The notes: generated by a model from the letters alone, not told the origin. Positions 24,370 to 58,954 are shown, counted from the first letter of the stretch. The stretch is DNA of 64,000 nucleotides from Gammaproteobacteria bacterium (GCA_040183005.1 JAMPIW010000002.1:434001-498000); one strand, 5' to 3'. Made by a program: numbers and translations.

Positions 24370-24381
24370 TGTTGTTAGTTA

Positions 24382-25002
24382 TTATTGTAAGCCCAAATGG
24401 ATGCGCCGCACGGTACCGGCCGGGATATCCACCTCCTGATGGGTTGTGAGAATCACCATACCCCCATTATGCAGATGCTGGCTTAACAGATCCTGAACGA
24501 CAGCCACCGCCGCCACATCGAGCGCAGTGAAGGGTTCGTCCAGAATCCACAGCCGGGTGTTGCACAACAACAGGCGGGCCAGCGCAACGCGGCGTTTCTG
24601 CCCCTGGGACAACACCTTGGCGGGCAGGTCTTCACGTCCGCCCAACCCCAGCTTGCCCAAGGCGGCAACCACTTTGTCCTCCGGGGCATCCACGCCCGCC
24701 AGCTCGGCGGAGATGCGCAGATTCTCCAGCGCAGTCAATTCCTCCTTGATGCCGCCCAAGTGCCCGAGATAGGTCACATCCTTGAAATAGTCTTCGCGCA
24801 GGCTGCGGATGCTCTCGCCGTTCCAGCGGATCTCCCCCTCGGCGGGAGCGGTCAGGCCGCATACCATGCGCAACAGGCTGGTTTTGCCGCTGCCATTGGC
24901 GCCATGCACGTGCAGCAGCTCGCCGGGTTGCAGGGAGAAGCTCATGCCCGCGAACAGGCGGCGGTCGCCGCGCACACATTCAAGATTGGAAACTTCCAGC
25001 AC
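24382..25002 (-). CDS. ccmA: Haem exporter ATP-binding protein CcmA
   Basis: CcmA is the ATPase of the CcmABCD complex and the first gene of the operon. The 206-residue protein has Walker A (GANGSGKT, 34-41), the signature LSQGQKRR and Walker B (LWILDEPFTALD). The length is typical. ATG 25002 is followed immediately by the canonical MLEVSNLEC start. Confidence 0.96.
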   Translation of the reverse strand: MLEVSNLECVRGDRRLFAGMSFSLQPGELLHVHGANGSGKTSLLRMVCGLTAPAEGEIRWNGESIRSLREDYFKDVTYLGHLGGIKEELTALENLRISAELAGVDAPEDKVVAALGKLGLGGREDLPAKVLSQGQKRRVALARLLLCNTRLWILDEPFTALDVAAVAVVQDLLSQHLHNGGMVILTTHQEVDIPAGTVRRIHLGLQ

Positions 25003-42388: not shown

Positions 42389-43696
42389 TTACGCGCCGAG
42401 CAACCTGCCCTCATCGCTATAGAAATGCAGGGCTGGCACCGGCTGAGCTGAGACAGTCACTGTTTCCAACACCTGCTCATCGCCGTCCAGGACAGACAGG
42501 GTGCCTTCGGTGGGATTAGAGACAAACGTGCGCGTGAAGACGCCATCTTGCTCCAGAAACGCGATGGGGCGCCGCCCGCAGTCGGCCACGCCGACGATGA
42601 CTTCCTTGCTCAGCCGCAGCATCGGCAGCGCGGAACTGTCGAATACCAGCAGCGCGTTCATTTTCAGGTTGACCTTCTGCGTCTTGTTGCCGGTGGAGGC
42701 GGTAGTCAAATAGAGTTTCTTGCCATCGGCGGAGAAGCGATAGACACTCGGATAGACATCGACCAAGTCCATCGTCTCGGACACGGCCTTGGTCACCACG
42801 TCGAGCACAGTGATCTTGCCGATCACATGATTTTCATCGCTCTTGCGGTCTGCGCCTTTGCAGACGATGAAACGGCCATCCGGGCTCAGCAGCGCATTGG
42901 TGCTGGTGCCGACGTAAATAGAATCTTCGACGCTATTGGTCAGCGGGTCGATCACCGCGATAGTGCCATAGCCGTTGTTCATGTTGTAGACCTTCCCGGT
43001 CAGCGGTGAATACACCATGCCGTGCGGCGCGGCATTGTTTGGTACGCCGGTGATTCCATTCTTTTCACGCACTGGTTCGCACAGGTTGATGGTAGCGATC
43101 ACCTTGAGATACGTGGCGGCATCCGCCGGGTCATTGCCCACCACGGAAATTGTGCCATCCATCAGATTGCTGACAAAAGCACGCCGCGGCGTTGCGGGTG
43201 CTAAGCTGGAGGGGAAGGTAAACGTTGTCACGTGATGGCCTCGGCCCACGCACAGCGTCGTCAACACCTTGGCAGGCACATCCAGCTTATCCGCCTGGAC
43301 GTCATTTTGGATCACCGTGACGGAGGAGCCGTTCTCGCCGCAATTGAGCGCATCATTACCCGTGTCTTTGTCACCATCGTTGCCCAGCCAAAGCTGCGCC
43401 TTGTCGACATCACGATACATGTGATCAGGCCGGGCAATGGCCGGGAATGTATTCTGGATATAAATCTGTTTGCTCACGGGATCAAGCATCGCCACCTGAT
43501 CGTCTTGCGTGGTATTAATAAAAACGGGCCGGGAGTTGACACTGTCAGCGGTTTCCGTGTCCAGTGCCTTTACCGTTGTTTTTCCCGTTGCGCCATCGTG
43601 CCTGATGACCGAGACCATGCCAATTTGCTCATCACCGGCATAGCACACCAAAGACCAACTGACATCATCAGAGGCGGCAGATAATTTTTCACTCAT
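42389..43696 (-). CDS. YVTN-type beta-propeller protein
   Basis: The 435-residue product shows 40-residue blades of the YVTN/cytochrome-d1-like type (RAFVSNLMDGTISVVGND, GKVYNMNNGYGTIAVIDP, RFIVCKGADRKSDENHVIGKITVLD, RTFVSNPTEGTLSVLDGD). There is no obvious signal peptide at the called start. It lies downstream of the haem-ligation and TPR genes and is likely part of the cytochrome cluster. Cysteines recur in some blades but no CXXCH is present. Confidence 0.75.
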   Translation of the reverse strand: MSEKLSAASDDVSWSLVCYAGDEQIGMVSVIRHDGATGKTTVKALDTETADSVNSRPVFINTTQDDQVAMLDPVSKQIYIQNTFPAIARPDHMYRDVDKAQLWLGNDGDKDTGNDALNCGENGSSVTVIQNDVQADKLDVPAKVLTTLCVGRGHHVTTFTFPSSLAPATPRRAFVSNLMDGTISVVGNDPADAATYLKVIATINLCEPVREKNGITGVPNNAAPHGMVYSPLTGKVYNMNNGYGTIAVIDPLTNSVEDSIYVGTSTNALLSPDGRFIVCKGADRKSDENHVIGKITVLDVVTKAVSETMDLVDVYPSVYRFSADGKKLYLTTASTGNKTQKVNLKMNALLVFDSSALPMLRLSKEVIVGVADCGRRPIAFLEQDGVFTRTFVSNPTEGTLSVLDGDEQVLETVTVSAQPVPALHFYSDEGRLLGA

Positions 43697-43761
43697 TTTT
43701 CTTTTCCAGGCTTAAGATGACTTGTCCGTGAAACACGTGTTTTATTATTGAAAAAAGAACA

Positions 43762-44472
43762 TCACCGCACTGGCGTCACCCGGATTGGTGCGCCCTCTTG
43801 CTGTTTTTGCTCCGGCATATCCACCGCAGGGCTGTTGCGATCAGTCCATTCCTTGCCTTTTCTGGCAAGGAAGTCGGCCTCCTCCTTGGGCAATGGCCCG
43901 CGCGCCAGTGCGTACTCCCATTCTCCCAACGCCGCACGCGCCTTACGCACCAGCGGATCTTCAGGAGGGGAAAGATGGATATAGGTACGCATCGCCCCCA
44001 GCGCACCCCGCAAGTCACCCATTTCCTCCAGGGTAACGGCAAGCCCCCAGTAGGCGTTAGCCTGATAGGGGCGCAAATTGGTCGCCGTGTTAAAAAAACT
44101 CTCGGCCTCTTTGTAGCGTTTCAGCCCGAACAAGGCAAACCCCATATTGACATGGGCATCGACCAGATTTGGTGAGAGCTCCAGGACGCGGTGCAAGGCG
44201 GTTGCGGCGTGTTCATACTGTTTTGCATGCAGCATCACCACCGCCTGCTCGAAGCGCATCTTGATCTGGGCCATGCGCGCCTGCTTTGCATGCTGTTGCG
44301 GATCTTTTTTGGGATCTGCAACCACTTGTGTCTCGCTCATTTTCGCCGGAGGCACGAAAGAGGGATTACGTGTTACACCCGTAATGAGGGCCACCATCCC
44401 CATCACCAGCAGCAATGAGACAACAGATGTCGCAATCTCAGTCGGATCACGTTCAAGAGCAACTGGATTCAT
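43762..44472 (-). CDS. Membrane-anchored TPR protein
   Basis: The 236-residue protein has one N-terminal membrane helix (about 15-34) and then TPRs (FEQAVVMLHAKQYEHAATALHRVLELSP, VNMGFALFGLKRYKEAESFFNTA, YWGLAVTLEEMGDLRGALGAMRTYI). It overlaps the CcsA gene by four bases. By analogy with CcmI, a TPR protein next to a haem ligase could present apocytochromes to it; this is inference from position and fold. Confidence 0.8.
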   Translation of the reverse strand: MNPVALERDPTEIATSVVSLLLVMGMVALITGVTRNPSFVPPAKMSETQVVADPKKDPQQHAKQARMAQIKMRFEQAVVMLHAKQYEHAATALHRVLELSPNLVDAHVNMGFALFGLKRYKEAESFFNTATNLRPYQANAYWGLAVTLEEMGDLRGALGAMRTYIHLSPPEDPLVRKARAALGEWEYALARGPLPKEEADFLARKGKEWTDRNSPAVDMPEQKQQEGAPIRVTPVR

Positions 44473-45344
44473 ATCACGCCCTTATGCGCGGCTTCACTGT
44501 AAAACGGCGTGCCAAAATAGGTAATGAAGGCAAACACGAACACGGCGATGATCGCCATTGCTCCAACACGGATTGGAATGCGGTAGGTCAGGCGCGCGTG
44601 GATGCTTGCGCCGAGCAACAGCCAGTTCAGAAACGACGAGGTTTCCAGCGCGTCCCACGCCCAATACCGCCCCCACGCGTCCTGCGCCCATACCGCACCT
44701 GCGGTGAGCATCAAACTGTGAAAGATGAACGCGAGCAGCATGAAACGCCACGCCAAGCCATCCAACACTTCGTCAGCAGGCATCTGTCGAAACCACCCGG
44801 CAAAGCGCTGGGCGTGGCGCAGCAGAATAACACCGGCTAGCGCCGTGCCCACCAGACTCAATGACAGAAAAATCTTGCCCAGCCCTACATGCGCCCATAA
44901 CCAGTCATTGTGATAGGTGGGAGGCAGCGGCGTATCAATGGGCTGCAAGGCCAACACCCAGCCCCCCAGCACCCCCATCAGCGGCAAAGCCACCACAGCA
45001 CTGGGCCGCAATACCGGCATGCGCCAATAAACGAGCGTAAACACCAGTCCCAGACTGAACAACTGGCTCATCAGTAATTCGAACAAATTGACGAACGGAC
45101 CATGCCCGATACGCACCCAGCGCTCCGCCAGCGCTATCGCGATTAGCGCCACCCCTGTGGCGACAATCACAAGTACCAGCTTTTCGTGCGAACGGCTCAC
45201 CGCCATTGCACCAACCGCTCGCCCTTGGGTTCTGATTACGCCTGCAACGGCAATAAAAGTGGCCAGCCCATAGGCAGTAAGACCCGCCCATAGCCAGGGA
45301 AGCTCCGTGGCCTGGCCAATGACATTTTCGATAATGTCACTCAT
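44469..45344 (-). CDS. ccsA: System II cytochrome c assembly protein CcsA/ResC-like
   Basis: The 291-residue inner-membrane protein has about eight helices and the CcsA-type WWD domain WGRYWAWDALETSSFLNWL near residue 235, with His residues before and after it for haem handling. ATG 45344 is preceded by a strong GGGAGGGG site; the longer frame to 45497 lies inside ResB. It overlaps ResB and the TPR gene by four bases each. With ResB it forms the CcsBA haem export/ligation unit. Confidence 0.9.
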   Translation of the reverse strand: MSDIIENVIGQATELPWLWAGLTAYGLATFIAVAGVIRTQGRAVGAMAVSRSHEKLVLVIVATGVALIAIALAERWVRIGHGPFVNLFELLMSQLFSLGLVFTLVYWRMPVLRPSAVVALPLMGVLGGWVLALQPIDTPLPPTYHNDWLWAHVGLGKIFLSLSLVGTALAGVILLRHAQRFAGWFRQMPADEVLDGLAWRFMLLAFIFHSLMLTAGAVWAQDAWGRYWAWDALETSSFLNWLLLGASIHARLTYRIPIRVGAMAIIAVFVFAFITYFGTPFYSEAAHKGVI

Positions 45345-46384
45345 AATCCCCTCCCACCAGAAATCTCCGATGCAGATACGTGTTTCAAGCTCGCCCCTGC
45401 GGATGGTGCCGGAGTGTGCTGTAGTCGAGCACCAAACCTGCCCCAGAAGTGTGAGCCCAAGCCGATTATCGCCACCATCGCCGAGGCAAACAGCCAATGC
45501 AGTGTGGGATCATAAAATACCTTGTAGCCCATCCAGCTTGTCAAACGCTCATAACGCAGCTTGCCACCCTCCAATTGGACCGTCTCTCCCGGCTGCAATT
45601 CAACCCGCCGTACCCCGGAGTTGACCACCAGCACGCCGCTGGCGCCTTTGCCGTCCAGCACCCAGGGGGCGTCCTCGCGCAATCCGGTTTTGAGGCGTAA
45701 CCAGAGTTTAATCTCCTTGCCACCTGGCGGCGTCCAGGTGCTATCTTGTTTGTATTCAAAAAGTGGGTAAGAGGGCATATGGACCGTACCGGTGATAGCC
45801 TCCCTCGGCGCCGTATCAGGCAACCACGTCAGCACCGGGGCGAAGCCTTTGTTGAATGTGGTGTAAAAGCGGTATCCCTCCAGCACCAGGGGGCGATCAT
45901 CGCCCACCACTTTGGTCACCACCCCGCCACGCCCATCCGGCACCAGCACCTGGCTGTGCGTCAGGCCGCGCACCATCCCTGCCGCATATTCCACTGTATA
46001 TGAACCCTGCACAAAGGCTATTTTATCCAATGCACCGGAGTGAAAGGGACCCTTGTTCACCTCGCTCAACTCCTGAGGGGAAAATGCGCCGCCCTCAGTA
46101 ATTTCCAGTTGCGCGTCCAGGTGAGTCAACCGTCCGACGCCCGCCAACACAATGATGGAAAGCAAACCGATATGAAAAATCAACAGGCCGGCACGGCGGT
46201 TAATGCGTGGGTTGGTGGCAATGGCGGCCAGCAAATTCACCGCCAGGAACGCCAAGGGAACGACCAGCACCCACACCGGGGTGCTCACCGGGTTGTTGTA
46301 ACTCAACGCCGCGCCTAAGGCCAGCAGCACCATGCCCAGCAATGCCAAGCGGACGGAACCCAGCGCGCGAACCATAGGGATCAT
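45341..46384 (-). CDS. resB: ResB/CcsB-like cytochrome c biogenesis protein
   Basis: The 347-residue protein has membrane helices near the N-terminus (about 10-28, 36-55 and 70-86), a large periplasmic domain and a C-terminal helix (WLFASAMVAIIGLGSHFWG). NPRINRRAGLLIFHIGLLSII carries a conserved His. This is the ResB layout. It overlaps the 11-haem cytochrome gene by four bases and CcsA by four. A full System I (ccm) is present elsewhere in the window, so this System II pair is probably dedicated to the neighbouring multihaem proteins. Confidence 0.88.
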   Translation of the reverse strand: MIPMVRALGSVRLALLGMVLLALGAALSYNNPVSTPVWVLVVPLAFLAVNLLAAIATNPRINRRAGLLIFHIGLLSIIVLAGVGRLTHLDAQLEITEGGAFSPQELSEVNKGPFHSGALDKIAFVQGSYTVEYAAGMVRGLTHSQVLVPDGRGGVVTKVVGDDRPLVLEGYRFYTTFNKGFAPVLTWLPDTAPREAITGTVHMPSYPLFEYKQDSTWTPPGGKEIKLWLRLKTGLREDAPWVLDGKGASGVLVVNSGVRRVELQPGETVQLEGGKLRYERLTSWMGYKVFYDPTLHWLFASAMVAIIGLGSHFWGRFGARLQHTPAPSAGASLKHVSASEISGGRGL

Positions 46385-49086
46385 GGCAGGTTGCTACACG
46401 TCTCACCGCCACTACCGTTCATCCAACTGATCCCGCGCGCACCATTGCCAGGCATACCCGCGGAGCCACAGTTTTGCGGCGTCCACTCGCCACTGCGCCT
46501 GAAATTCACCACTTTCAGCACGGAACCGTTGTAATACGGCCCATTGTAAAAACGTGCCGTGGTGTTGTTGCGCATCTGGGTGCCTGGCGGCAGGCCTGCC
46601 TCAAGGCCAACATCATTCAGGTTGACCAGGAAGTTCTTGTTCTTCCAGCCGTGCGGCACGGCGATATGGCAATACGTACAACGGAAATTCTGTACCACCT
46701 GCGCGTGGCCGGTGTGCAGATTGACACGCTGGACATTCAAACAACCGAAACCCGACGCATCATTTGGATTTCTGGCAAAACCGCTCTTGAGCGTCTGATT
46801 GTCAGTTAACAGGCCCTGCGGGAACTTCTTGCCGTAATAATCATAATTGTGGCACTTGAAACACAGGTGATCCTGCTTGTTCTCGCCAGTCTGGTCGTCC
46901 CAGGGGCCTTTCAGGAGGAAGTCACTGTTGGAGCCATGTGGCCCCCACACATTGCCCTGCTCGCCACCATCGGGCACTACTGTGCCCGGGGCGGTGGTCG
47001 AACCATGGCAATCGGTGCAATACATGGTCTGTATGCCCACGCCTGCATTGAAGGGTTCGCGCCAGATATTCGGGCTGTCCACCCGCCTCACATCGATGGT
47101 ACGCCCGGTATCCTTCAATGCCGGATGCCAGGAACGGTGGTTATCGCTCTGAAAATCTACCGTGTAACCCTGTCCGGCAGCCGGACCCTTGTATGCCCCG
47201 CTGGGAGTGGGTGACGTACCTTCTCCTTTGTGATCGTCCGGCGACTGGTACTCCATACCCATATTGGTGTATTGAATCATCGCATTGGTGCCCGGCGGAG
47301 TCCCTCCCGAGAAAGAACCCAGCATGGGTGGCTTATCAAAACCATAATTGGAATGACACTTCATGCAGATCTGATATTCGCGCGTCACATACGGTGCGTT
47401 TACATCGGTACTGCCACCCACACCCGGGTCACCGCGCTTGACCACGAAGGTCGTCGGCTCGCTGCCAAACGCGGTGCTCGGCCAGCCGCCCGGCTCCACG
47501 CCTGTGATGCCGCGCAGCACACCGGAAGCGATGTTGGTGTGGTGGCGCTCGGGATTGTTGGCGATCTGCGCCGCAGTGTGATTATGCGTACCCTCCGTAT
47601 CGGGAATCGATGTGTCGGCGTTGAAAATACGATTTTTGGTCACGCGGTGCGGGTTATGGCAGTCCGTGCATTCCGCGTGGCGGTTTTGCAGGCCGCCCAC
47701 CTCGCCCTTCTTGTTCACCCTGCTCGCCTTGCCCATGTTGGCTGGGGACTCGACAAAATCCTTGCCGCCACCAGGACCATTAGCCTGCTCATCGGTGGCA
47801 GTACCGATATCATGTCTTTCACGTCCGGCAGGCTGGTCGCGGCTGGAAATCGGCATGTGGCGCGCCATGGTGGTGAAGTCGGTCTTGATGTCCGGCACCT
47901 CGAAACCAGGTTTCACTCCCTGACCCTGTAAAGTACCACCATCCGTGGAATGACAGGCATAGCAGGTTTCCTCGATGGCCGGGTTGCCACCCTGCTTGAA
48001 TTTGGTGCCATCCGCACCCACCATCGTCGGACCATCCGTGCCTTCACGCAGCAGGCGGCGCGACCCCTGCACGGTATGCGGGTCGTGACAGTTCAGACAC
48101 GCAGCCTGCCACACTGGCAGATTTTTGGGGAAATCGCGCAACTTGCCCGCCGCGTCCGCATAACGCTCATTGGCCACCGCCGGATGGGCATGGGCCGAAC
48201 CCACCCAGCCCGCCTTGTCATGGCAGCCCAGGCAGATGATGTCGCTCTTTTCGTTGAAGCGCTTGTCAGTCGGCGGCTGTTGCTGGAGGCGGTTGACGCG
48301 CAAGAACTTGATATTGTCCCCGGACGTATCGCGCAGATGGGGATCGTGGCAACTCACACACTCAACCTTGTTGTCCTCCAACGGCAGGGTGGGCTTGACC
48401 CCCGGCGTGCGAGTGCCGAGGTGCGCCACCATCGCCGGGTCATACAGCTCACCATCGCGTGCCGCCTGGGCACTGTCGAAGGTAAACGAGATAGGATGGT
48501 CATTGGTCAGGTCCGTGCCTAGACGGCGTGTGTAGCCGGTATGCTGTCCACGTCCCTCGGGGATCTTGTCATCCTGCCCAACGCCGGGGCCGGTAAAGTC
48601 AATAATCGGCTTTTCAACGCGGTTCAGTACATTGACCGAACCCAGCGCTAATGTGCCGTCGTGGCACGACAGGCACAACTTGGACTTGCCGCCCGGCTGG
48701 CCGAGATCGGTCGCATCGATGGATGACGAGGAATACGGAATATAGGTTGCACCCGACAGCTTGCGGTTCCACAGCGGGGTCTTGGGGGCGAGGGTAGCAC
48801 CATGGGGGGTATGGCAGAAGGCGCAGATCTGGGACTCGTTGGTGGCATAGGCATCGCGCGTTATGCCTTCCGGCAATACAGGTATCACCGTCGACGAGAA
48901 ATTATGTTTGGTATTGCGTATATCAGCCACGCGCTCGGCCTGGACACTCACAGCGCCCAGCAGCAACGCACCCGCGCATAGCAGCATCGCGGCAACCGCG
49001 CGCGGCTTAATAACGTGAGCCTTCCATAACCCTCGCCCTTCGGGCAGCCTTTGGCTGTCCCGTTTTGTTTCCGGCAAAACGGTCAT
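46381..49086 (-). CDS. Undecahaem c-type cytochrome with OmcE-like N-terminal domain
   Basis: The 901-residue exported protein has a signal segment (about 28-50) and eleven CXXCH motifs starting at residues 88, 138, 243, 285, 330, 375, 473, 574, 690, 742 and 803. The first four sites repeat the motif order of the tetrahaem protein of this cluster: NTKHN, CHTPHG, CLSCHDGT, DLTNDHP, CHDPH, FLR, CxxCH. The remaining 600 residues carry seven further haems and non-motif cysteines (782, 873, 897). It is probably surface-exposed and acts in electron transfer. It overlaps the NHL gene and resB by four bases each. Confidence 0.92.
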   Translation of the reverse strand: MTVLPETKRDSQRLPEGRGLWKAHVIKPRAVAAMLLCAGALLLGAVSVQAERVADIRNTKHNFSSTVIPVLPEGITRDAYATNESQICAFCHTPHGATLAPKTPLWNRKLSGATYIPYSSSSIDATDLGQPGGKSKLCLSCHDGTLALGSVNVLNRVEKPIIDFTGPGVGQDDKIPEGRGQHTGYTRRLGTDLTNDHPISFTFDSAQAARDGELYDPAMVAHLGTRTPGVKPTLPLEDNKVECVSCHDPHLRDTSGDNIKFLRVNRLQQQPPTDKRFNEKSDIICLGCHDKAGWVGSAHAHPAVANERYADAAGKLRDFPKNLPVWQAACLNCHDPHTVQGSRRLLREGTDGPTMVGADGTKFKQGGNPAIEETCYACHSTDGGTLQGQGVKPGFEVPDIKTDFTTMARHMPISSRDQPAGRERHDIGTATDEQANGPGGGKDFVESPANMGKASRVNKKGEVGGLQNRHAECTDCHNPHRVTKNRIFNADTSIPDTEGTHNHTAAQIANNPERHHTNIASGVLRGITGVEPGGWPSTAFGSEPTTFVVKRGDPGVGGSTDVNAPYVTREYQICMKCHSNYGFDKPPMLGSFSGGTPPGTNAMIQYTNMGMEYQSPDDHKGEGTSPTPSGAYKGPAAGQGYTVDFQSDNHRSWHPALKDTGRTIDVRRVDSPNIWREPFNAGVGIQTMYCTDCHGSTTAPGTVVPDGGEQGNVWGPHGSNSDFLLKGPWDDQTGENKQDHLCFKCHNYDYYGKKFPQGLLTDNQTLKSGFARNPNDASGFGCLNVQRVNLHTGHAQVVQNFRCTYCHIAVPHGWKNKNFLVNLNDVGLEAGLPPGTQMRNNTTARFYNGPYYNGSVLKVVNFRRSGEWTPQNCGSAGMPGNGARGISWMNGSGGETCSNLP

Positions 49087-50165
49087 GCCCCTCCCCCCAG
49101 ATACTCAAAGATCACAATACGCCCGTTAAACATATCCGCGACATATATCCGCCGGCGCTGATCGGTCCAGACCCCCGCAGGCAAATAAAATTCCCCCACT
49201 CCGCTGCCCCCCCCACCGATCGGCAGCAGCAGCTCACCCTCACCATTAAATACTAGCAAATGATCATAATAAGATTCCACGACATACACATTACCGGCAC
49301 CATCAACCGCCACCCCCTTGGGACGCGTCATGTCGCCGAGAAACAGGCCGCGCCTGCCAAACATGCGCAGCACCTTGCCGTCCGGGGCAAGCACCTGGAT
49401 GCGCGCGTTCAGCGTGTCCGCAACATACAGCTTGCCATTGGCAAACGTCAGGTGGGTCGGTGAATTAAACCCACTCTGGCCCTCCTGGCGCTCGCCGCTG
49501 CCAAAGGTGTCCAGAAGATTCCCTGCGTCATCGAATACCTTGATCCGATGCTCATGGGTATCCGCCACATAGATTCTGCCCTGCACCGCATCGCGCGTCA
49601 GCCCCGTCGGGTGTTTCAATACACCTTTGCCGAAACTGCCGACAGGGACACCCTCTCTATTGAGACGCACCACCCTGCCCAGCGAGGAGTCGGCCACCAG
49701 GATCTCACCGTTCGCACCTAACGCAATACCAATGGGCGCTTCGAAACGGGTACCCTCCAGCGCCATCTCCCACACATGGAGCTTACCCACCTTCTCATCG
49801 AACACGTAAACCGCCTGGCGACTGACGTCGGTGACATAAATCCTGCCGCCGTCATCCACCACACCGGCCTGCGGACGCTGCAATATCACGGCCTGGCGCT
49901 GGTCCGAAAACAACCCGACCAGCCACTTCAGCCCCGTCAACCCAAGGTCGCCAATGCCTCCGCCACCCTCGGTCTTTATATTCTCCTCACCCGTCAATTC
50001 GCCAACATAGCGGTAACGGGGCGTCTCCGGAGCTGGGGGCCACACAGTGGCTTGCGCGCCCTCTGCCTGATAGCGCAACACCGAACGCGACTCGGCGCAG
50101 CCCGTCAACAGGGCAAAGGCCATCAGCACGACACCAATACCACAGCGCTGCAAGCTGATCGCCAT
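49083..50165 (-). CDS. NHL-repeat beta-propeller lipoprotein
   Basis: The 360-residue protein has a lipoprotein signal (ALLTGCAES, Cys23) and six NHL-type blades (RIYVTDVSRQAVYVFD, EILVADSSLGRVVRLN, RIYVADTHEHRIKVFD, KLYVADTLNARIQVL, NVYVVESYYDHLLVFN, RIYVADMFNGRIVIFE). NHL propellers recur next to multihaem cytochrome genes in metal-reducing bacteria, where they are thought to help assembly or bind surface partners. It overlaps the 11-haem gene by four bases and the next NHL gene by one. Confidence 0.88.
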   Translation of the reverse strand: MAISLQRCGIGVVLMAFALLTGCAESRSVLRYQAEGAQATVWPPAPETPRYRYVGELTGEENIKTEGGGGIGDLGLTGLKWLVGLFSDQRQAVILQRPQAGVVDDGGRIYVTDVSRQAVYVFDEKVGKLHVWEMALEGTRFEAPIGIALGANGEILVADSSLGRVVRLNREGVPVGSFGKGVLKHPTGLTRDAVQGRIYVADTHEHRIKVFDDAGNLLDTFGSGERQEGQSGFNSPTHLTFANGKLYVADTLNARIQVLAPDGKVLRMFGRRGLFLGDMTRPKGVAVDGAGNVYVVESYYDHLLVFNGEGELLLPIGGGGSGVGEFYLPAGVWTDQRRRIYVADMFNGRIVIFEYLGGGA

Positions 50166-51544
50166 TAGTTAGTGTTTTGGCCCTTGGTGCCAGGCGCAAC
50201 ACGCATGACCTGCACGCGCCCATTCAGGCTGTCAGCGACAAATAGCAAGCCCTCATCAAACCACAAATCGGTGACATGCCTGAATTGACCAAGACCTGAA
50301 CCAGGATGGCCGACACTCGCAGCCAATCGCCCCTGTTCATAAACCTTGATGCTGCCATCACTGAAATCGCTGACAAAGACACGGTTGTCCTGATCAACGG
50401 CTATTGCTGTGGGAAAAATTATCCCCTCCTGTGGAAGGGAGTAAGAGTATTGGCCACCCTCCCCCAATACCTGAATATGCTGCCCAACGCGCGCCGTGAC
50501 ATAAAAACCATCAGGCCCCTGTGCCATGGCTGTGATATTCAAGAATTCCCCAGGATCACCGCCGCGACCGCCCATGGAGCCGGTCAACTGGCCCATGCTG
50601 TTAAATACCAACACGTAATCATATACCCCATCCGCCACGAACACACGCCCGCTTGGCTCATCCACGGTCACGGAAACCGGACGGGTCATGTTCAGCGGAT
50701 TACTGAACGTACGCAGCAAACGGCCTTTCCGGTCAAACTGCAATACCCGGGCACCAAAGGTATCAGCGATATAAAACGACAGGTCACGGGCAACATAGAT
50801 ATCCGCCCCATCCCCCGTCATCACACCAGTCAAATTCATGACGGGCGTCAATCTGCCGGTAGCGCGCTCATACCTGAACAACATGTCCTGGCCGGCATCC
50901 ATCACAAAAAGGGTATTCCCGCGCGCCGCGACGGCGATGGGCCGCACAAAGCTCAACTCCCTCACACCCGCAATGAAATTCCCTTCCGGCCCGCCGCGAA
51001 TAATCTCCCAAGGCTGCAATAGTTCAAGGGACTGGGTGGGCGCTGCCACCACACTGGGAACTGGCGCCGGCACGGAAACCGGCGCCCCATCCTGCCCAAC
51101 CTCTTTCATTGAAGCAACCGACGGCGCTTGCTCTATCTGTCCTGGCGCAACAATGGCACTCTGAGGCGGCGGCATATTGGTTGCTTGCGCGCTCTGATCC
51201 TGAACTGGAGGCGATAATGTTGAAGCAGGCACCGGAGCCGCAGCAGCCAACTCTACTGGCGCAACCCCATCTGGAGCAATGGTTAAGGGAAGCGGTTCCG
51301 GCATTGCCGTCACGGGCACAGGTGCCAACAGAACCTCATCTTGCGGAGTTCTCTGAACAACCACCGGGGAAACGGGTGTGCCAGCAGCCTGGGCGGATTG
51401 ATCCTGATTTGCAGCCTGTGATTGATTGACTAGCGGCGCAGGCGCAGGTTTACCCAGCGAGGCACAGCCGGATTGCGCCAGCACCAGGGCTACGCCCAGC
51501 GCTGTCAGCGAAAGCCGGCAGTTTGACGGGGAACGGAGTGACAT
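50165..51544 (-). CDS. NHL-repeat beta-propeller lipoprotein, Pro/Ala-rich N-terminus
   Basis: The 459-residue protein has a lipoprotein signal (LAQSGCASLG), about 150 residues rich in Pro, Ala and Gln, then an NHL propeller (TLFVMDAGQDMLFRYE, SFYIADTFGARVLQFD, RVFVADGVYDYVLVFN, RVFVSDFSDGSIKVYE, LLFVADSLNGRVQVM). I chose ATG 51544 because the signal starts there; it overlaps the trihaem gene by 40 bases. It is a paralogue of the next gene with a long flexible spacer, suiting a protein that reaches across the periplasm or the cell surface. Confidence 0.85.
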   Translation of the reverse strand: MSLRSPSNCRLSLTALGVALVLAQSGCASLGKPAPAPLVNQSQAANQDQSAQAAGTPVSPVVVQRTPQDEVLLAPVPVTAMPEPLPLTIAPDGVAPVELAAAAPVPASTLSPPVQDQSAQATNMPPPQSAIVAPGQIEQAPSVASMKEVGQDGAPVSVPAPVPSVVAAPTQSLELLQPWEIIRGGPEGNFIAGVRELSFVRPIAVAARGNTLFVMDAGQDMLFRYERATGRLTPVMNLTGVMTGDGADIYVARDLSFYIADTFGARVLQFDRKGRLLRTFSNPLNMTRPVSVTVDEPSGRVFVADGVYDYVLVFNSMGQLTGSMGGRGGDPGEFLNITAMAQGPDGFYVTARVGQHIQVLGEGGQYSYSLPQEGIIFPTAIAVDQDNRVFVSDFSDGSIKVYEQGRLAASVGHPGSGLGQFRHVTDLWFDEGLLFVADSLNGRVQVMRVAPGTKGQNTN

Positions 51545-52119
51545 CGTCCACAATTCAGGGTTGGCGGAAAGGCGACCTTGCCGTGGCACACGCCACAATA
51601 CCGGCCTTGGATGATGGCCGCCATATTAACGGGATTGGCGCCCGCCTGCGGGAGAAAGATCAACGGATGGCAGTTGGCGCACGTCAGCCATTCCGTGTGC
51701 TGCCGATGAGGAAAACGGACATTAGGCATCGACCCGGTATTTTTAAAGATAATATCAAAATCCACCGGGAACATTTGAACTTCACCATTGAGTCCCTTGC
51801 GCGGATCAATCAAACCGTCATCAAGCGCCTTTACCCAATCGATAATGCCTTTTGAATCCCTGGGAAAATCCGCCAATGCCTCGGCAGGGTCCGCCAGCAC
51901 CTTGATCGCCGGATTGGTTGGATCACGAATACCATCTTCCGCCAGCGGCACCGCTTCGCCCTGCGTCTGAAAATGCCGCCCTTTGGACCATATCAACTCC
52001 GATGCGGCGGCACCCTCCATAAGAATCAGGCAAAGCAACGCCGCCATGACACCCCAAACACGCGCGCAGAACACCCGCCCGGCCAGACGATTGAATTGGA
52101 GATTTTTCTTTTCGCTCAT
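51505..52119 (-). CDS. c7-type trihaem cytochrome (copy C)
   Basis: The 204-residue exported protein has a signal segment (about 18-40) and CXXCH motifs at 147 (CANCH), 175 (CGVCH) and 190 (CGRCH), preceded by FPHRQHTEW whose His residues are likely distal ligands. This is the c(7)-type trihaem domain. The upstream region (AEDGIRDPTNPAIKVL, WVKALDDG) is shared with copy B, so the two are duplicates. ATG 52119 is used; the frame opens to 52149. It starts the tightly overlapping sub-operon. Confidence 0.88.
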   Translation of the reverse strand: MSEKKNLQFNRLAGRVFCARVWGVMAALLCLILMEGAAASELIWSKGRHFQTQGEAVPLAEDGIRDPTNPAIKVLADPAEALADFPRDSKGIIDWVKALDDGLIDPRKGLNGEVQMFPVDFDIIFKNTGSMPNVRFPHRQHTEWLTCANCHPLIFLPQAGANPVNMAAIIQGRYCGVCHGKVAFPPTLNCGRCHSVPRQTAGFR

Positions 52120-52290
52120 CGCCACCCCAAACCCGCAAACACACCCCAACTACCCAGCACGCCGAATCACTAGCTTTTTGCTTTGCTTACCGCAGGCAGC
52201 CTTCGCAACCCTCAATTGTGATCTGCCCACAGGGGGGAGGCGATCACCACACTTATAAAACGTGAAACGCCCTCGAACCAACCACCGCGA

Positions 52291-53616
52291 CTAATTCACG
52301 CCAGCGATCATTAGCGCCCGCTGAAGTTGCATCGTGGCATCCTGAAGATTGCCGATAGCAGTCGCATAATCTTTTTTGGCGGCCTGCTGTACCGCATCCC
52401 CGTGCATAGCCTTGGCCTTTTCCGACAACTCACGCATCTTTTCCACGGTAGCAGCCGGGGGATTTCTTTGCTCTATGGCAAGCGGGATCAGCTCTTCATA
52501 GCTTTTGTAGCGCGACAACTCATACTCATATTCCTCGGCAGGCGTGGCAAAGTTTTTGTCATACACCACCGTCTCTGCATTAAGCAGCACACCCAGAGCA
52601 CTCGTGACCATTCTTTGCGCGCCCATCAACACCTTGTTCGCCTCATCATAATGGCCGACATCGGCATGGCCGCGCGCTTGGACAAGGGCGTCCTGGAATT
52701 TCTTCGTGTCCAGCGTGTTTGCGGCATTCCCTTTCTTGGCCGCCAATCTGTCACGATGCTGCTTGTAAGACGACTCAAAGGTCTTTATCGCATCCAGCAG
52801 CTCGTTATAGCGGAATTTAGGATCGGTCACCTCAGGTGAATCGCTGGGCACCAGGCGCGCTGCCGCGCTCACCAGCTTGAGCGACTCGTCAACTTCCGCC
52901 TGTGCCTTGCCAATATCCCCTGCTGCCAAGGCAGTCCGCGACGCGTCAAGATGAGCACGCGCCGATCCCAGCATATCCTTGGCCTGCGCGTTGCTGCTTG
53001 CGGAGATACGCTGCGCGCCCTTGGACACATTCACCAGCATGTTGGCAAAATCAATTTTCTGCTTGACTTGGGCCTCCATGGCAGAAGGCGTGACAGGAGG
53101 AGGCGCCGAAGATCCCTCGGTTTCAGCAGGGGCTGGAGCTACCGTGGAAGACGATTCCACCGGCGCAGCTTGTCCTTTATCGACGACATGGATCTTGCCG
53201 CCCATATTTTTATGATTGCGGCATTGGTAATACACCACCCCCGGCGTGGACGCAGCCGGGGCAAATTCCACCGTTCCCCTATAGGTAAATTGACCCGTCA
53301 CCCCTTCGGTGATTGTACTGGCGCCCTGCCCAACCGGATTGTTTGAAAAATAGAAATCGTGCATAGGGCCCGTATTGACGTTAAAGGTATACTCCACCCC
53401 ACGCGTCAAAACCAGGGTTTTACCCTGTACGCCGTCGACAACCAGCCCCATCTTGCTCCCCTGCCCGTAGAACGGATGGGTGCCGTCCTTGGGCGCTGCC
53501 GTGACCACAAAATCCCTCTTTTCCGCCGCCAATGATGCGCCGTGATACCCCGCAAGACAAATCGCAAGCACTGGCGCCATAAACATACTATGTTGGTTTC
53601 TAAACTTCATCATCAT
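52291..53616 (-). CDS. Cupredoxin-like domain protein with C-terminal helical region
   Basis: The 441-residue exported protein has a signal peptide (about 1-31), a cupredoxin-like domain to about residue 148 and a long alpha-helical region after a Pro/Ala-rich linker (149-185). Candidate type 1 copper ligands are His86 (GPMHDFYF), Cys132, His135 and Met138 (YYQCRNHKNMGG). The helical part has heptad-like repeats (AKDMLGSARAHLDASRTAL). ATG 53616 starts a run of three Met codons preceded by AGGT. Standing between cytochrome genes, it may be a copper electron carrier or a scaffold. I know of no such fusion by name. Confidence 0.8.
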   Translation of the reverse strand: MMMKFRNQHSMFMAPVLAICLAGYHGASLAAEKRDFVVTAAPKDGTHPFYGQGSKMGLVVDGVQGKTLVLTRGVEYTFNVNTGPMHDFYFSNNPVGQGASTITEGVTGQFTYRGTVEFAPAASTPGVVYYQCRNHKNMGGKIHVVDKGQAAPVESSSTVAPAPAETEGSSAPPPVTPSAMEAQVKQKIDFANMLVNVSKGAQRISASSNAQAKDMLGSARAHLDASRTALAAGDIGKAQAEVDESLKLVSAAARLVPSDSPEVTDPKFRYNELLDAIKTFESSYKQHRDRLAAKKGNAANTLDTKKFQDALVQARGHADVGHYDEANKVLMGAQRMVTSALGVLLNAETVVYDKNFATPAEEYEYELSRYKSYEELIPLAIEQRNPPAATVEKMRELSEKAKAMHGDAVQQAAKKDYATAIGNLQDATMQLQRALMIAGVN

Positions 53617-53857
53617 TACCTGATCACCTGCAAGAATAATCCGCTGACAGTTACTCAATCAAAGTGTCCATCGACCTTCAACCCGAGACATTCTGGTTGA
53701 AACCGCTAACCTCCCTTTTAGCGGCACGCAACGGTCTCAAGATAAGCCGGCCGAAACACAACACTTCAATGCACGGACTTCAAAAAATACCACCCTGAAA
53801 AACCACTTCTAAAGTAGGCCTTTCAGGATGTTACTTAATGGAACTCGCAATAAAAAC

Positions 53858-53895
53858 ATAAGCGGCGGACCATCAGCCGACGGTCCGCCGCTTAT
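53858..53895 (-). terminator. Rho-independent-type hairpin after trihaem copy B
   Basis: ATAAGCGGCGGACC (53858-53871) pairs with GGTCCGCCGCTTAT (53882-53895), a 14-bp stem. Read on the minus strand it is followed by TGTTTTTATT. It ends three bases after the trihaem gene stop and divides the cytochrome cluster into two transcription units. Confidence 0.85.
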
Positions 53896-53897
53896 CT

Positions 53898-54638
53898 TCA
53901 CTTCCAGGGATTCTTAAGAGTAGTCTCGCTCAGTGGCGGCTTCCAATCATCCGGCTTGGGCTTGGAGTGACATTTCTTGCACGACTTGGTGGTAATCGGG
54001 AAGGACACCTTGCCGTGACATACGCCGCACTTCTGGCCCAACAGAATGGCGGACATGTTGATCTGGTTAGCACCCTTCTGCGGAATAAAGATCGCGGGAT
54101 GGCAGTTGGAGCAGAACAGCCACTCCGTGTGCTGCCGGTGCGGGAACACCACATCCGGCACCGAGGCCTTCACTGGGCGTACGATATCAAGATCCATCAC
54201 AAACGGTTCTGCATCGGGATCTTCACGGTCCCAGCGCGGCCTGATCTTTTTCTCATCGAGCGTCTTCACCCAGTCAACGCGATTACCGAACTCAGTTGTA
54301 GGAAGCCCCTCGAATGCCGATTTGGGTGCCGCCAGGATATGGGTGGCCTCATTTTGAGGGTCACGCAGACCGTCTTCCGCAGGCGGCAACTGAAATGCCC
54401 GTTTCTTCAGGTTGCGGTTGAAGCTATTGATATCAGCGACTTCGGCGATATGAATCACCTGCACATCGGATTGAGCAACCTCGTCGACCGGTTTGTAGCT
54501 GGGCGCGTAAGACAGGTCTTGCACCGGCACCGAGCCGTCAGGCCGGGCCACCCCTTGAGCCTGCGAACTGCATGCAGGCCCCGCCACCAGCAGCGACAGG
54601 ACAAATGTCACAAAAAGCGTTTTATTATACCGATTCAT
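53898..54638 (-). CDS. c7-type trihaem cytochrome (copy B)
   Basis: The 246-residue exported protein has a signal (about 1-27, AGPACSS) and CXXCH motifs at 176 (CSNCH), 204 (CGVCH) and 220 (CKKCH), with FPHRQHTEW before the first. It is a paralogue of copy C: the trihaem domain and the FQLPPAEDGLRDP and WVKTLDE regions correspond. It lies 19 bases after copy A and just before a strong terminator. Confidence 0.9.
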   Translation of the reverse strand: MNRYNKTLFVTFVLSLLVAGPACSSQAQGVARPDGSVPVQDLSYAPSYKPVDEVAQSDVQVIHIAEVADINSFNRNLKKRAFQLPPAEDGLRDPQNEATHILAAPKSAFEGLPTTEFGNRVDWVKTLDEKKIRPRWDREDPDAEPFVMDLDIVRPVKASVPDVVFPHRQHTEWLFCSNCHPAIFIPQKGANQINMSAILLGQKCGVCHGKVSFPITTKSCKKCHSKPKPDDWKPPLSETTLKNPWK

Positions 54639-54657
54639 CTTCTTTTTCCTCTATCCA

Positions 54658-55122
54658 TCACTTTTTAGGAGCAGGTGCTTGGGGCGCAGCGGGAGCGGAA
54701 GGTGCCGTCATCGGTTGATATGCGGGCGCCACCAGCGTCTGGACCGTGCTTCCGTGGAAGTGCGTCGGCGTGCCGGGGACACCGGAATGGCACATTCCGC
54801 AGTTTTCCACTGACCAGGCAATTTCGCCATTGTGGCAGGCGCCACAGAACTTGCCATCGATGATCTTGGCCATGGTTATCTTGTTGCCGCCCGCCTTGAA
54901 CTGGAAGCCCAAATCGGCATGGCACACCTTGCAGCGGAAACGGACACGGTGAAACCAGTGCGAAAAGACCGCAGGGCGCATACCTGCCGCATCAGCATAA
55001 TTATTGATCACAACATCACCATACTCCGCCTGCGCGGGCGTTGGCACCACTAAAACTGCAAGCCATGCGGCAACACCCAATACAGCGGCGCTCCACATGG
55101 AACGACTTTTGGTTACAAACAT
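54658..55122 (-). CDS. c7-type trihaem cytochrome (copy A, short)
   Basis: The 154-residue protein has a signal peptide (about 1-32, AQA-EYG) and CXXCH motifs at 64 (CKVCH), 93 (CGACH) and 108 (CGMCH). FSHWFHRVRF supplies His residues for distal ligation. It consists of little but the c7 domain, with a Pro/Ala-rich C-terminal tail after the last haem. It probably shuttles electrons in the periplasm towards the outer-membrane components encoded next to it. Confidence 0.9.
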   Translation of the reverse strand: MFVTKSRSMWSAAVLGVAAWLAVLVVPTPAQAEYGDVVINNYADAAGMRPAVFSHWFHRVRFRCKVCHADLGFQFKAGGNKITMAKIIDGKFCGACHNGEIAWSVENCGMCHSGVPGTPTHFHGSTVQTLVAPAYQPMTAPSAPAAPQAPAPKK

Positions 55123-55251
55123 TGCGCTACCCTCCCATCTTCAATTATCAAATCGTTTGACAACAATTTTCGCGGCTATATCCCAACCGCACAACACCAC
55201 ACATCGGCAACTGTTCCATGCGTTGCTCTACCTCGCCCATCCATGGGCTCG

Positions 55252-57108
55252 TCAAAAACGACGCGCAATCCTGAACAACAGCAATTTTGAATTCTGCCCG
55301 TCGATCTGTATTAAACGCAAGCTCAGACTTGCATCCAGGAGCCCAATCGCATAATCCAGGCGATTATCCCATTCGGAGCGGTCAATCCCCTGTTGCGTTG
55401 CCGACCTGGAAACAAACAGGTTGGACAGGAAACGCAAATTGGTGATGCCAAGCACGCTGGAATGCTGATAGTCAATTCTACCTGTTGCCGTTGTAATATT
55501 GGAAGCCGTACCGAGGCCAGGAAAATCCTGGCGCACATACTGCACAGTAAGATTACCCGATAAAAAACTCAAGCGGTTGATGGGCTGAGTCCGCATTATC
55601 TGAAAATTGGCAAGCTGCTGGTTATCCTTGGTATCGGACAGACTCCTCGAGTCCGATAGGGTCGCCTGCACGGTTGAGGTGCCGGTATCCGATTGGCTCC
55701 AGGCCACCATACCGGTATGATCCAGCCGGGTATTCGCAGCGGCAATCCCGCTAAACTGGCGGTTCGCCACCGTCCCTTGGTGGTCCTGCTGGGCAGTAAT
55801 CGTATCACTGCCACCAAAACGGTAAAACCCGTTAAGCGACTGCCCCAGGCTCATCCTCACCGAAGATGTATCGTTCACAAGCCATGTTTTCTGGCCGTTG
55901 TGCGCCAAAGTGGCATAAACCGATTGCCGGCTTTCGTTTTTGTGCGGCAGTTGATTATCCGCCTTGTCAGTCTGGTTATCAGCCGATCCCGTAGCATACC
56001 ATTGATACGTGCCAGACCCCTTGAAAAGATCCATGGTGTCGGACTGATACAAAGCTCCCACCTGCTGCCGTGAGATCCGTGTTGCCACACCGTTGCTGTC
56101 TGTAGCTGTTACCGCCGCGCTGCCATCAAAACGCAAGCGCTTGTTATATTGATAAAACCCGCCAAGGTTGGCGCTAAGATTGAGCGAACTATTGGAATCA
56201 AGCGGGGTATTGCCATCGAGCTTGAAAGCCCGCACACCGCCGCTGAGCGAGAGCGGACTCGCCTCGGGGCGCCAAAACACGAATGTTGAGGCCTGTGCGA
56301 TATTGGTGGTGCTGCTGCCCGAGGTCGCACTGGCACTAGTCACCCGAAAAGAGCGGTCAAAATTGTAGTAACTGGCCTTGGAATCAACCCGCAACGCGGG
56401 GGACGCCGTGTAAAAATGACTCAGGTCAAAGATAAGGCTCTCATTGCGCAACTTGGACAATGAGTGTTCGGTAGTCCCCTGGCTTAACTTGACCAGAAGA
56501 TTCTGCTTTGAGCGCCGCATATCCATCTCCAGCCCCAGCAGGCTGTCGTCATAGCTACCGTCGGTGACCGAACTCCAGTTCGAGGTGTCATACCGGAACA
56601 GGAAACGGTCGTTTTGCTCCGTAAGATACGACTGCCGCAATTCGAGACGGCGGGTATCAAACTCCAGGTTTGTAAACGTCACCGGGGCGCTGCTGATCCG
56701 CCCCATGTCAACACGGCTATTGCTAGTCAAATATCGCAGACTGAAAGGCGAGCGGCTTTGCGGAAGCAGGTTGAGATTGAACTCGCCCGTCACTATGTTG
56801 GAACTGCTGTCCTGGAGACCGCTATCCGAATTAGCCTTGCTGACACTGGCGGCATCCCGCATCAAGGTCAGACCACCTTCCGCCGTGGCAAACCAGGGCT
56901 GCCAGATATAGGAATTCGCGCGCAAATTGACAAGGAACTGATTGCTCGCCGTTTTGCTGTCATCGGAACCTTGCAGCAGACGGTAGTTGTAGCCCAGGCT
57001 GCCCGTCACCTCCGCAGGCCCCACAGCCACCGCGAAGCCACGCAAAGGCCACGCGAACGCGAGCAGTGCCAGCATATAATGCCTGGCGTCAAATCTGCTC
57101 ATATACAT
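55252..57108 (-). CDS. Outer-membrane beta-barrel protein, possible cytochrome conduit porin
   Basis: The 618-residue protein has a signal peptide (about 1-28) and then amphipathic alternating strands throughout (QFLVNLRANSYIWQPWFATAEGG, LRYLTSNSRVDMGRI, LLLFRIARRF), ending in Phe as outer-membrane barrels do. The length suits a barrel of roughly 20 or more strands. It contains no CXXCH. Its place between the tetrahaem/PPIase and trihaem genes suggests a barrel that holds or passes a cytochrome, as MtrB/PioB or the Geobacter Omb porins do. I cannot assign it to one of these families by eye. Confidence 0.8.
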   Translation of the reverse strand: MYMSRFDARHYMLALLAFAWPLRGFAVAVGPAEVTGSLGYNYRLLQGSDDSKTASNQFLVNLRANSYIWQPWFATAEGGLTLMRDAASVSKANSDSGLQDSSSNIVTGEFNLNLLPQSRSPFSLRYLTSNSRVDMGRISSAPVTFTNLEFDTRRLELRQSYLTEQNDRFLFRYDTSNWSSVTDGSYDDSLLGLEMDMRRSKQNLLVKLSQGTTEHSLSKLRNESLIFDLSHFYTASPALRVDSKASYYNFDRSFRVTSASATSGSSTTNIAQASTFVFWRPEASPLSLSGGVRAFKLDGNTPLDSNSSLNLSANLGGFYQYNKRLRFDGSAAVTATDSNGVATRISRQQVGALYQSDTMDLFKGSGTYQWYATGSADNQTDKADNQLPHKNESRQSVYATLAHNGQKTWLVNDTSSVRMSLGQSLNGFYRFGGSDTITAQQDHQGTVANRQFSGIAAANTRLDHTGMVAWSQSDTGTSTVQATLSDSRSLSDTKDNQQLANFQIMRTQPINRLSFLSGNLTVQYVRQDFPGLGTASNITTATGRIDYQHSSVLGITNLRFLSNLFVSRSATQQGIDRSEWDNRLDYAIGLLDASLSLRLIQIDGQNSKLLLFRIARRF

Positions 57109-57219
57109 AAGGCGTGACAGTCATATTGCCAACCGCGCCGACGGCGCGCCCCTAGATAGCATTCAAATTATTATTAAAAACAGCACCGAATTGCAGACCG
57201 CCCCACACGCTCTGCGATT

Positions 57220-58110
57220 TCACGGGCCAGCATCTTTTTCTTCATTTATCGTAACCGGCGTCTCCCTGCGCAGCCGCTCGATAAGCGCCTGCCACGCCAC
57301 CTCCCCCCGCTCCCTCGCCAGCAAGTCACGCGCGCGCGATTTTGCGGCATCAAACGCGCTTAATGCGGGCGCGACGCGCTCCTCCAGCCGCAGCACCGCC
57401 ACCCCTTGCAGCAACAACAGCGGCGCGGAGACATCACCCGGCTTCATGCCATCCAACACCTGCTGCGCCTCGCCGGCCAGCATACCTTTATGCACATATC
57501 CCAGATCCCCGCCCCGGCCCGCCGAAACGTCCCCCGAGTGCAACCGGGCCAGCTCGGCGAAATCCGCCTCCCGGCGCTGTGGCTCTGCCTGGCGCAGCCT
57601 GCCAACCAGGCGTGCCGCCTCGGCCTCCGCTGCCTTCCATGCCGCACCTGTCGCAGAAGGCTCCACCTTGAGCAGGATCAACGCAACCCTCAACCGCTCC
57701 GGCGCGGTAAACTTATCCGGATGCGCATTATAATAACCGCGCACCTCTTCCGCGCCCGGCTCCGGCACACGCCGGACATCCGCATCCAGACGCCCCAGCA
57801 GATCGTCGCCTTCCAAGCCCCGGTTCTTCGCCTCCTGCCGCAGCAGAGCACGGTCAATCAAAGCCTGCGCCACTTCGCGGCGGTAGGCGTCAACCTGCTC
57901 CTGTGAGGGCGCACCATGAAAAAACTTGCGCCGCATCCCCTCATGCAGCGCGGACTGATACTCCGCCTGCGATATCGCCTCACCCCCAACTATAGCGAAC
58001 GGCGCGACCACTCCTTGAGTCTCCTGGGGCGGCACGCCAGCAACAGCAACGCCCACCAAGGCCAGGGTTAATATCTGCAACGCCCACCAGCGCCCCCCCC
58101 TATTTCGCAT
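57220..58110 (-). CDS. PpiC/SurA-type peptidyl-prolyl isomerase
   Basis: The 296-residue protein has a signal/anchor (about 8-26), a helical SurA-like N-domain (ISQAEYQSALHEGMRRKFF) and a parvulin domain (RVALILLKVEP to GVAVLRLEERV; HSGDVSAGRGGDLGYVHKGML is the parvulin core). It is likely a periplasmic chaperone for export of the neighbouring cytochromes or barrel. It overlaps the tetrahaem gene by 11 bases. An eight-G run at the seventh codon makes a sequencing frameshift possible there. PPIases are recurrent neighbours of cytochrome-filament genes. Confidence 0.9.
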   Translation of the reverse strand: MRNRGGRWWALQILTLALVGVAVAGVPPQETQGVVAPFAIVGGEAISQAEYQSALHEGMRRKFFHGAPSQEQVDAYRREVAQALIDRALLRQEAKNRGLEGDDLLGRLDADVRRVPEPGAEEVRGYYNAHPDKFTAPERLRVALILLKVEPSATGAAWKAAEAEAARLVGRLRQAEPQRREADFAELARLHSGDVSAGRGGDLGYVHKGMLAGEAQQVLDGMKPGDVSAPLLLLQGVAVLRLEERVAPALSAFDAAKSRARDLLARERGEVAWQALIERLRRETPVTINEEKDAGP

Positions 58111-58954
58111 GACAGGTCAAACATAACGCGCTGCCCTTGGGATCAATGCGCAGGAAGGTGGGATTGTAATCGACATGCGGATCATGGCACGAGGCACACT
58201 CAACATACGGTTGCGGCTCGCCGGCATATTTGCCGCGCGTACCGGTGCGCGTGTATAGCTTCATGTCGGTCTTTTCGAAGGCCAGCGAGCCCTCCACGGG
58301 GGTGTTTACCCACCACACCCTCTCCGTGCCGACAATCGCGGTGTTGGCCTGGTTGAAATCCTTGTCAGCGCCCGGACCGGAGGGATTGGAATTGGAATAG
58401 CCCCCGCCCGCATACTGGATGCCCACCGGGTGATCATTGGTCAGATCCTTGCTCAAATTGGTGATAACGTTGGGTGGCGCGATCCTGCCGCCGACGGAGG
58501 CCGCCTGACCGCTCCAGATGCCGCTCCTGAAGCCTGGAACAACCCGCCCGGATCCAGGCTCGTTAAGCAACGAGTCCATCGCCTGGGTGCCGTCATGACA
58601 GGAAAGACAAGCCAGTGAGACTGAGCCCACCTGCTCCACATGGGCATCGAGCGTGGTGGTGCCCATCTGGTCATAGGTTTGAAAGCCATTGGGGTCGAGA
58701 TTGCGGTTCCAGATGGGAACGGCTGCGGCCTCGTTGCCACCATGGGGGGTATGGCAGAACACGCAAATCTCCCGCGTGCCGCTAAATTGGCTGGCCGCGT
58801 TCACGCCCGTGCTGCCGAGATTGTGCTTGGTGTTAAAAATGCCGGCCAGCGCGCCGCCTGCGGCAAAAAAAACCGAGCCACAGACAATAAGCAGCACTGC
58901 ACCGACAACGAGCCCTCTCCCACGCAACGAATGTTCTTGGTGATTTATTTTCAA
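58100..58954 (-). CDS. Tetrahaem c-type cytochrome, OmcE-like
   Basis: The 284-residue exported protein has a signal segment (about 14-38) and four CXXCH motifs at 64 (CVFCH), 116 (CLSCH), 253 (CASCH) and 278 (CLTCH). IFNTKHNL before the first haem, CHTPHGG, CLSCHDGT, DLTNDHPV, CHDPH and the terminal LCLTCH follow the plan of OmcE of Geobacter sulfurreducens, whose tetrahaem subunits polymerise into an extracellular filament; the match is by memory of the motifs. The start codon is TTG (58954) with GAGGGTGG upstream. It heads the cluster. Confidence 0.88.
   Translation of the reverse strand: MKINHQEHSLRGRGLVVGAVLLIVCGSVFFAAGGALAGIFNTKHNLGSTGVNAASQFSGTREICVFCHTPHGGNEAAAVPIWNRNLDPNGFQTYDQMGTTTLDAHVEQVGSVSLACLSCHDGTQAMDSLLNEPGSGRVVPGFRSGIWSGQAASVGGRIAPPNVITNLSKDLTNDHPVGIQYAGGGYSNSNPSGPGADKDFNQANTAIVGTERVWWVNTPVEGSLAFEKTDMKLYTRTGTRGKYAGEPQPYVECASCHDPHVDYNPTFLRIDPKGSALCLTCHAK

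Follow-up and report, generated by a model that had tools for sequence, protein, structure and literature searches.

A run of multihaem cytochrome genes in a gammaproteobacterial genome raises the question of whether its owner builds an extracellular cytochrome filament, how such a filament would be joined to the cell, and in which direction it would carry electrons. The genes lie at positions 42389-58954, on the minus strand, of a 64,000-nt stretch of Gammaproteobacteria bacterium (GCA_040183005.1 JAMPIW010000002.1:434001-498000), hereafter the window. By gene content and order, this locus is the complete, already described Uet (undecaheme electron transfer) cluster uetABCDEFGHIJ. Recomputed open reading frames (ORFs) and haem motifs confirmed the gene set and coordinates of the original prediction, 14 co-directional genes on one strand, together with its 24 CXXCH sites, which fall in five proteins (UetA 4, UetD 3, UetE 3, UetG 3, UetJ 11). 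Composition shuffles of these five cytochromes contained a mean of 0.08 CXXCH.

Identity and conservation of the Uet cluster

The cluster is not new, because it is gene-for-gene equal to the published Uet. Its existing name and literature (PMC10734462, PMC12575090, PMC5371394) were absent from the original prediction, as was the OmcE-like module of UetJ. Uet, to which an exchange of electrons between the cell and solids outside it is ascribed, has been described in Tenderiales that oxidise cathodes and in some Gallionella; the hosts in the literature are cathode or Fe(II) oxidisers. The cluster was named uetABCDEFGHIJ (PMC12575090), and its products were described as an undecaheme cytochrome (UetJ), an extracellular tetraheme cytochrome (UetA), triheme cytochromes (UetDEG), a peptidylprolyl isomerase (UetB), NHL proteins (UetHI) and a porin (UetC) (PMC10734462). 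The latter source, which like PMC12575090 cites Eddie et al. 2022 on Tenderiales, describes a 'porin-MHC complex'. The undecaheme gene Tel_16545 of Ca. Tenderia electrophaga is accompanied by three triheme genes (Tel_16515, 16520 and 16530), with Tel_16525 alongside; the triheme genes are among the most highly expressed of this organism (PMC5371394). The local gene order matches Tel_16515-16545, with the position of UetF corresponding to Tel_16525. The Uet clusters of Ca. Tenderia electrophaga and Gallionella share with the local one the same ten genes, their order, the haem numbers (4, 3, 3, 3, 11), the PpiC protein, the barrel and the NHL proteins. On a contig of Ca. Tenderia sp. BWSM_60 (L042), UetA, UetD and UetE share 73%, 85% and 68% identity with the local proteins, and uetA to uetF are in order up to the contig end, which follows uetF. 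Compared with the published gene list, the local cluster continues with ResB, CcsA and TPR genes, also found in relatives, and with a family-specific propeller.

Gene order is strongly conserved in relatives. Among 58 loci with enough downstream sequence, uetA-C-D-E-F-I occur in this order in 55, uetB lies between uetA and uetC in 53, and the order including both uetB and uetJ is found in 45; many of the misses reflect locus ends or divergence. The order is kept across Gammaproteobacteria, Burkholderiales included. Allowing for detection gaps, ResB-CcsA-TPR come directly after uetJ in each of the eight sampled relatives whose sequence extends that far; in 5/8 distant relatives, Ideonella, Ramlibacter and Polaromonas among them, ResB-CcsA follow uetJ as well. 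The propeller at 42389-43696 is present in loci L111-L116 and absent from L117 and L118; it and the next gene are restricted to the organism's own family. The conserved block is therefore 43762-58954, and the originally proposed extent holds except at its propeller end.

Matches to the UetA profile were retrieved from 41 of 369 genomes sampled from Gammaproteobacteria; among the matched loci are those of a Ca. Tenderia and of a metagenome-assembled genome (MAG) from a biocathode. One match labelled 'Caldilineales' (L052) was rejected as a likely binning error, as a gammaproteobacterial-like porin adjoins its uetA. A Uet subtype from Burkholderiales and other distant lineages (L074-L110, L142-L148) shows two additions, an NHL gene immediately upstream of uetA and, following uetG, a fourth trihaem cytochrome. 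At L090, L105 and L107, the region upstream of uetA contains an ORF of about 800 aa that encodes an 18-haem cytochrome. A separate related cluster at L119 (G051:C7), which seems to lack the remaining Uet genes, encodes an 11-haem protein of 577 aa and an OmcE-like tetrahaem protein of 230 aa together with two NHL proteins.

UetA and the OmcE-like module of UetJ

UetA has 284 residues and an apparent signal peptide. In a phmmer search against the PDB, it matched only 7tfs (OmcE; E=2.6e-22) and 9yuq (E=5e-26). A profile of 44 UetA sequences returned the same two structures (1.7e-34 and 6e-34, respectively), no other entry scoring better than E=1.1, and so placed the tetrahaem protein with OmcE and with no other solved family, as the original prediction had proposed. 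No OmcS chain was found among the PDB matches of this profile up to E=10, and UetA has four haems, not six. In the 44-sequence alignment, the only invariant histidines are those of the four CXXCH motifs and H44, H71, H175 and H260. Each of the latter has an OmcE counterpart, and the four CXXCH and the distal histidines follow the OmcE order. All 81 UetA sequences examined end exactly at CxxCHxK, and OmcE ends in CHKK. UetA thus resembles Geobacter OmcE (PDB 7TFS) in sequence, in its four CXXCH and four distal histidines and in its CHxK C-terminus, and exceeds it in length by about 50 residues, with an insert located after NDHP and before haem 3. Membership of UetA in the OmcE family is well supported by these sequence comparisons.

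In OmcE, the second histidine of one haem is supplied by the adjacent subunit. The main argument for polymerisation of UetA is that its ligand set is the same as that of OmcE. For the OmcE-type filament route originally proposed, family membership was confirmed, and from it we infer that UetA may polymerise into an OmcE-type filament.

UetJ has 901 residues and 11 haems. Its residues 53-291, approximately, form an OmcE-like four-haem module that runs straight into seven more haems. UetA aligns end to end with this segment (E=8e-25), and UetJ itself matched only 7tfs (1.3e-20) and 9yuq (1.6e-14) in a phmmer search against the PDB. The module keeps all eight haem-ligand histidines (four CXXCH and four distal), and all 18 full-length cluster UetJ proteins examined in relatives have 11 haems. 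Judged by these matches, the N-terminal module of UetJ belongs to the OmcE family; compared with OmcE, the cluster thus has a second OmcE-like module, fused to seven haems. UetJ scored 28.5 bits against the DmsE/MtrA decahaem family TIGR03508, for which the cut-off is 192.2. In a tree of UetA and UetJ, the UetJ modules stand apart from UetA, which suggests an old duplication behind the two; the single exception (row J_L075) is probably a paralogue picked in error, and the placement of OmcE and 9yuq in this tree is unreliable owing to long branches. No report of the UetJ module was found in the literature searched, the primary Uet paper lying outside that search.

A second OmcE-like gene occurs outside the window in the same genome (L120:9744-11677; G000:C1, about 220.7-222.7 kb). 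Its product has five CXXCH, of which CGKCH is the extra one, and the distal histidine of CHTPH is lost. Beside it lie an NHL gene, a gene for a small barrel-like protein and divergent genes for multi-domain cytochromes c; its pairing with the NHL gene is kept across the organism's family.

The UetC barrel and the remaining genes

The AlphaFold2 model of UetC, built with 55 homologues, contains 28 long strands, so that UetC is confidently predicted to be a large 28-stranded barrel; the outer-membrane barrel of the original prediction lacks a family match yet is recovered by this model. The C-terminal residue is Phe in 56 of 70 orthologues. In a structural search, MtrB ranked first (Z 17.6), followed by plugged TonB receptors (17.0-17.4). 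As MtrB is tied in Z with TonB receptors, the search shows a large barrel, not MtrB membership. A search of the genome for the MtrB family returned no match, but the controls were equally silent and the result carries no weight. The MtrCAB/MtoAB conduits are alike in having a large barrel and a cytochrome of about ten haems; UetC and UetJ fall outside the MtrB and DmsE/MtrA sequence families, and Uet adds an OmcE-like subunit.

Table 1. Genes of the cluster, in window coordinates
Gene or product	Description	Coordinates	Strand	Evidence
uetA	Secreted OmcE-family cytochrome with four haems, proposed to form the filament	58100..58954	-	phmmer, profile, kept ligands
uetB	PpiC-type peptidyl-prolyl isomerase, proposed periplasmic chaperone	57220..58110	-	PF00639 3.2e-13
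uetC	Predicted 28-stranded outer-membrane beta-barrel	55252..57108	-	AlphaFold2 predicted local distance difference test (pLDDT) 87; best PDB match MtrB 6r2q_B
uetD	Trihaem c7 cytochrome	54658..55122	-	TIGR04257 5.4e-19
uetE	Trihaem c7 cytochrome	53898..54638	-	TIGR04257 1.4e-16
uetF	Cupredoxin domain and helical C-terminal part	52291..53658	-	PF25489 2.2e-8, conserved copper-type ligands
uetG	Trihaem c7 cytochrome	51505..52149	-	TIGR04257 1e-18
uetH	NHL propeller and probable lipoprotein, with a possibly internal start	50165..51598	-	PF01436 2.7e-11
uetI	NHL propeller lipoprotein	49083..50165	-	PF01436 2.4e-30, lipobox-like motif
uetJ	11-haem cytochrome; OmcE-like tetrahaem module ~53-291, then 7 haems	46381..49086	-	phmmer, haem count
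ResB-like	Cytochrome c maturation protein (system II)	45341..46384	-	PF05140 6.3e-9
CcsA/CcsB-like	Cytochrome c maturation protein (system II)	44469..45344; ORF extends to 45497	-	PF01578 6.1e-24
TPR protein	Membrane-anchored	43762..44472	-	TPR_2 7.9e-14; after CcsA in relatives
YVTN-type beta-propeller	Accessory, close family only	42389..43696	-	TIGR02276 3.2e-8

Pfam/NCBIfam scans bore out the PpiC, c7, NHL, ResB, CcsA, TPR and propeller assignments (Table 1), and two proteins of the cluster gave paired-CXXCH cytochrome matches. The CcsA/CcsB-like protein also matches TIGR03144 (2.2e-31), yet under the family cut-off; the gene stands as predicted, with its start most likely near 45344 instead of 45497. 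The predicted cupredoxin fusion is supported by the copper-type ligands H100, C146, H149 and M152 of UetF, kept in about 39 of 48 orthologues. The lipobox-like motif of UetI is present in 70 of the 85 sequences of its orthologue set.

From uetH through the TPR gene, adjacent genes overlap or abut. A very strong terminator-like hairpin of 17 bp, of the hairpin-plus-T type, lies between uetE and uetF (53895-53858), and another is located at 59150-59125, 3' of the upstream porin and ahead of uetA. Relatives have such hairpins too: 16 of 68 carry one after uetE, and one follows the gene in 23 of 100 members of the uetA set, paralogues included, with 2-8 per gene elsewhere. The hairpin after uetE may provide a surplus of UetA-E over the remaining proteins. 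Promoter-like sites are no more frequent than expected by chance. Two general porin genes (PF13609; 59172-61763) lie directly upstream of uetA on the same strand, and such porins stand beside uetA in many relatives. The window also contains a system I (Ccm) operon with CcmF and CcmI (17191-25002); the genome therefore has system I in addition to the cluster's own ResB/CcsA.

Proposed electron route and its alternatives

We consider it reasonably probable that UetA forms an OmcE-type filament, capped or anchored by UetJ at UetC, and that electrons flow inward. In the periplasm, UetB would hold UetA in a foldable state; ResB and CcsA may together help to attach haem to the cluster cytochromes. 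UetA would cross the outer membrane and polymerise outside, each subunit donating a histidine to its neighbour's haem as in OmcE. UetJ would be located at UetC or within it. Its module would present one interface to the filament and is fused at its other end to seven haems, hence the proposed role of UetJ as cap or anchor. UetJ would link the filament to the periplasmic trihaem cytochromes UetD/E/G and the copper protein UetF, which may carry periplasmic electrons, and the NHL lipoproteins may shape or stabilise the surface assembly. A more specific version, in which UetJ is the base of the nanowire, its module standing at one end of the UetA filament, as first subunit or as last, and its seven-haem part plugging the filament into UetC, is possible at somewhat less than even chances. 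Electrons would enter from Fe(II), minerals or other solids. The original prediction had them running from periplasm to surface; the inward direction is judged likelier here because the genome encodes RuBisCO and the Uet hosts in the literature are oxidisers of cathodes or Fe(II). A cbb3 oxidase model (ccoN) matched the genome only below its cut-off.

The part list has a parallel in Geobacter OmcS nanowires, for which OscH was proposed to act in folding, OscEFG in secretion and OscD in shaping (Shen et al., 2025, as cited in PMC13194489 and PMC12977616). The omcS-companion (Osc) operon likewise sets a folding factor, channel proteins and a morphology protein beside a filament cytochrome; its subunit is the hexahaem OmcS, which has no detected sequence relation to UetA, and the accessory proteins resemble those of Uet as a list of parts. 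In the Osc study just named, OscH is reportedly a prolyl isomerase and OscD a propeller.

Several points weigh against this scheme. UetC has no Pfam/NCBIfam match at E<=0.01, the MtrB-type TIGR03509 included, and its structural match to MtrB is shared with TonB receptors. NHL, PpiC and TPR domains are common, and RuBisCO does not fix the direction of electrons. The haem-free AlphaFold2 model of UetA (44 homologues) reached a pLDDT of only 48 and was left out of fold searches. The UetA filament is a prediction, and the physiological role of cytochrome filaments in general is disputed (PMC11077965).

One alternative is a conduit without a filament: UetJ would act with UetC to carry electrons across the outer membrane, and UetA would be a surface cytochrome in the form of monomers or short oligomers. 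Such an arrangement is near to the published description of Uet and suits a large barrel with MtrB as its top match, and homology to OmcE is no proof of polymerisation. We nevertheless regard it as somewhat unlikely, given that UetA keeps all OmcE haem ligands, including one that acts in trans in OmcE, and has the exact OmcE-type C-terminus, and that the PpiC and propeller proteins are reminiscent of the apparatus that assembles OmcS. The same parts could instead export electrons to solid acceptors in metal reduction, as with Geobacter OmcE. OmcE and OmcS serve Fe(III) reduction in Geobacter (PMC12307469), and some hosts (Rhodoferax, Motiliproteus, Thalassotalea) are not obvious lithoautotrophs. 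The known habits of published Uet hosts, the RuBisCO of this host and the Ca. Tenderia and biocathode MAG among the matches speak against export, which we think unlikely; the flow is probably inward. A periplasmic respiratory multihaem enzyme cluster unrelated to Uet, such as one that reduces sulfur or nitrogen compounds, is very improbable: paired-CXXCH and c7 domains are indeed widespread, but the block is without a catalytic cytochrome or molybdoenzyme, its PDB profile matches are only OmcE and 9yuq, and it contains a barrel and has the Uet order.

Secretion, anchoring and electrical coupling of cytochrome nanowires have been named as an open question (PMC12307469). The cluster itself was known; an OmcE-family filament candidate together with a fused anchor candidate is a moderately novel, testable hypothesis. 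If UetJ is the base, it would offer a physical model of filament anchoring and of the electrical contact between filament and cell. If UetA forms an OmcE-type filament and UetJ its fused anchor, nanowires would serve electron uptake in Uet hosts, which include electroautotrophs and Fe(II) oxidisers, and a test of anchoring would involve one barrel and two defined proteins. With UetA-profile matches in about one in ten of the genomes sampled, this capacity would then be common.

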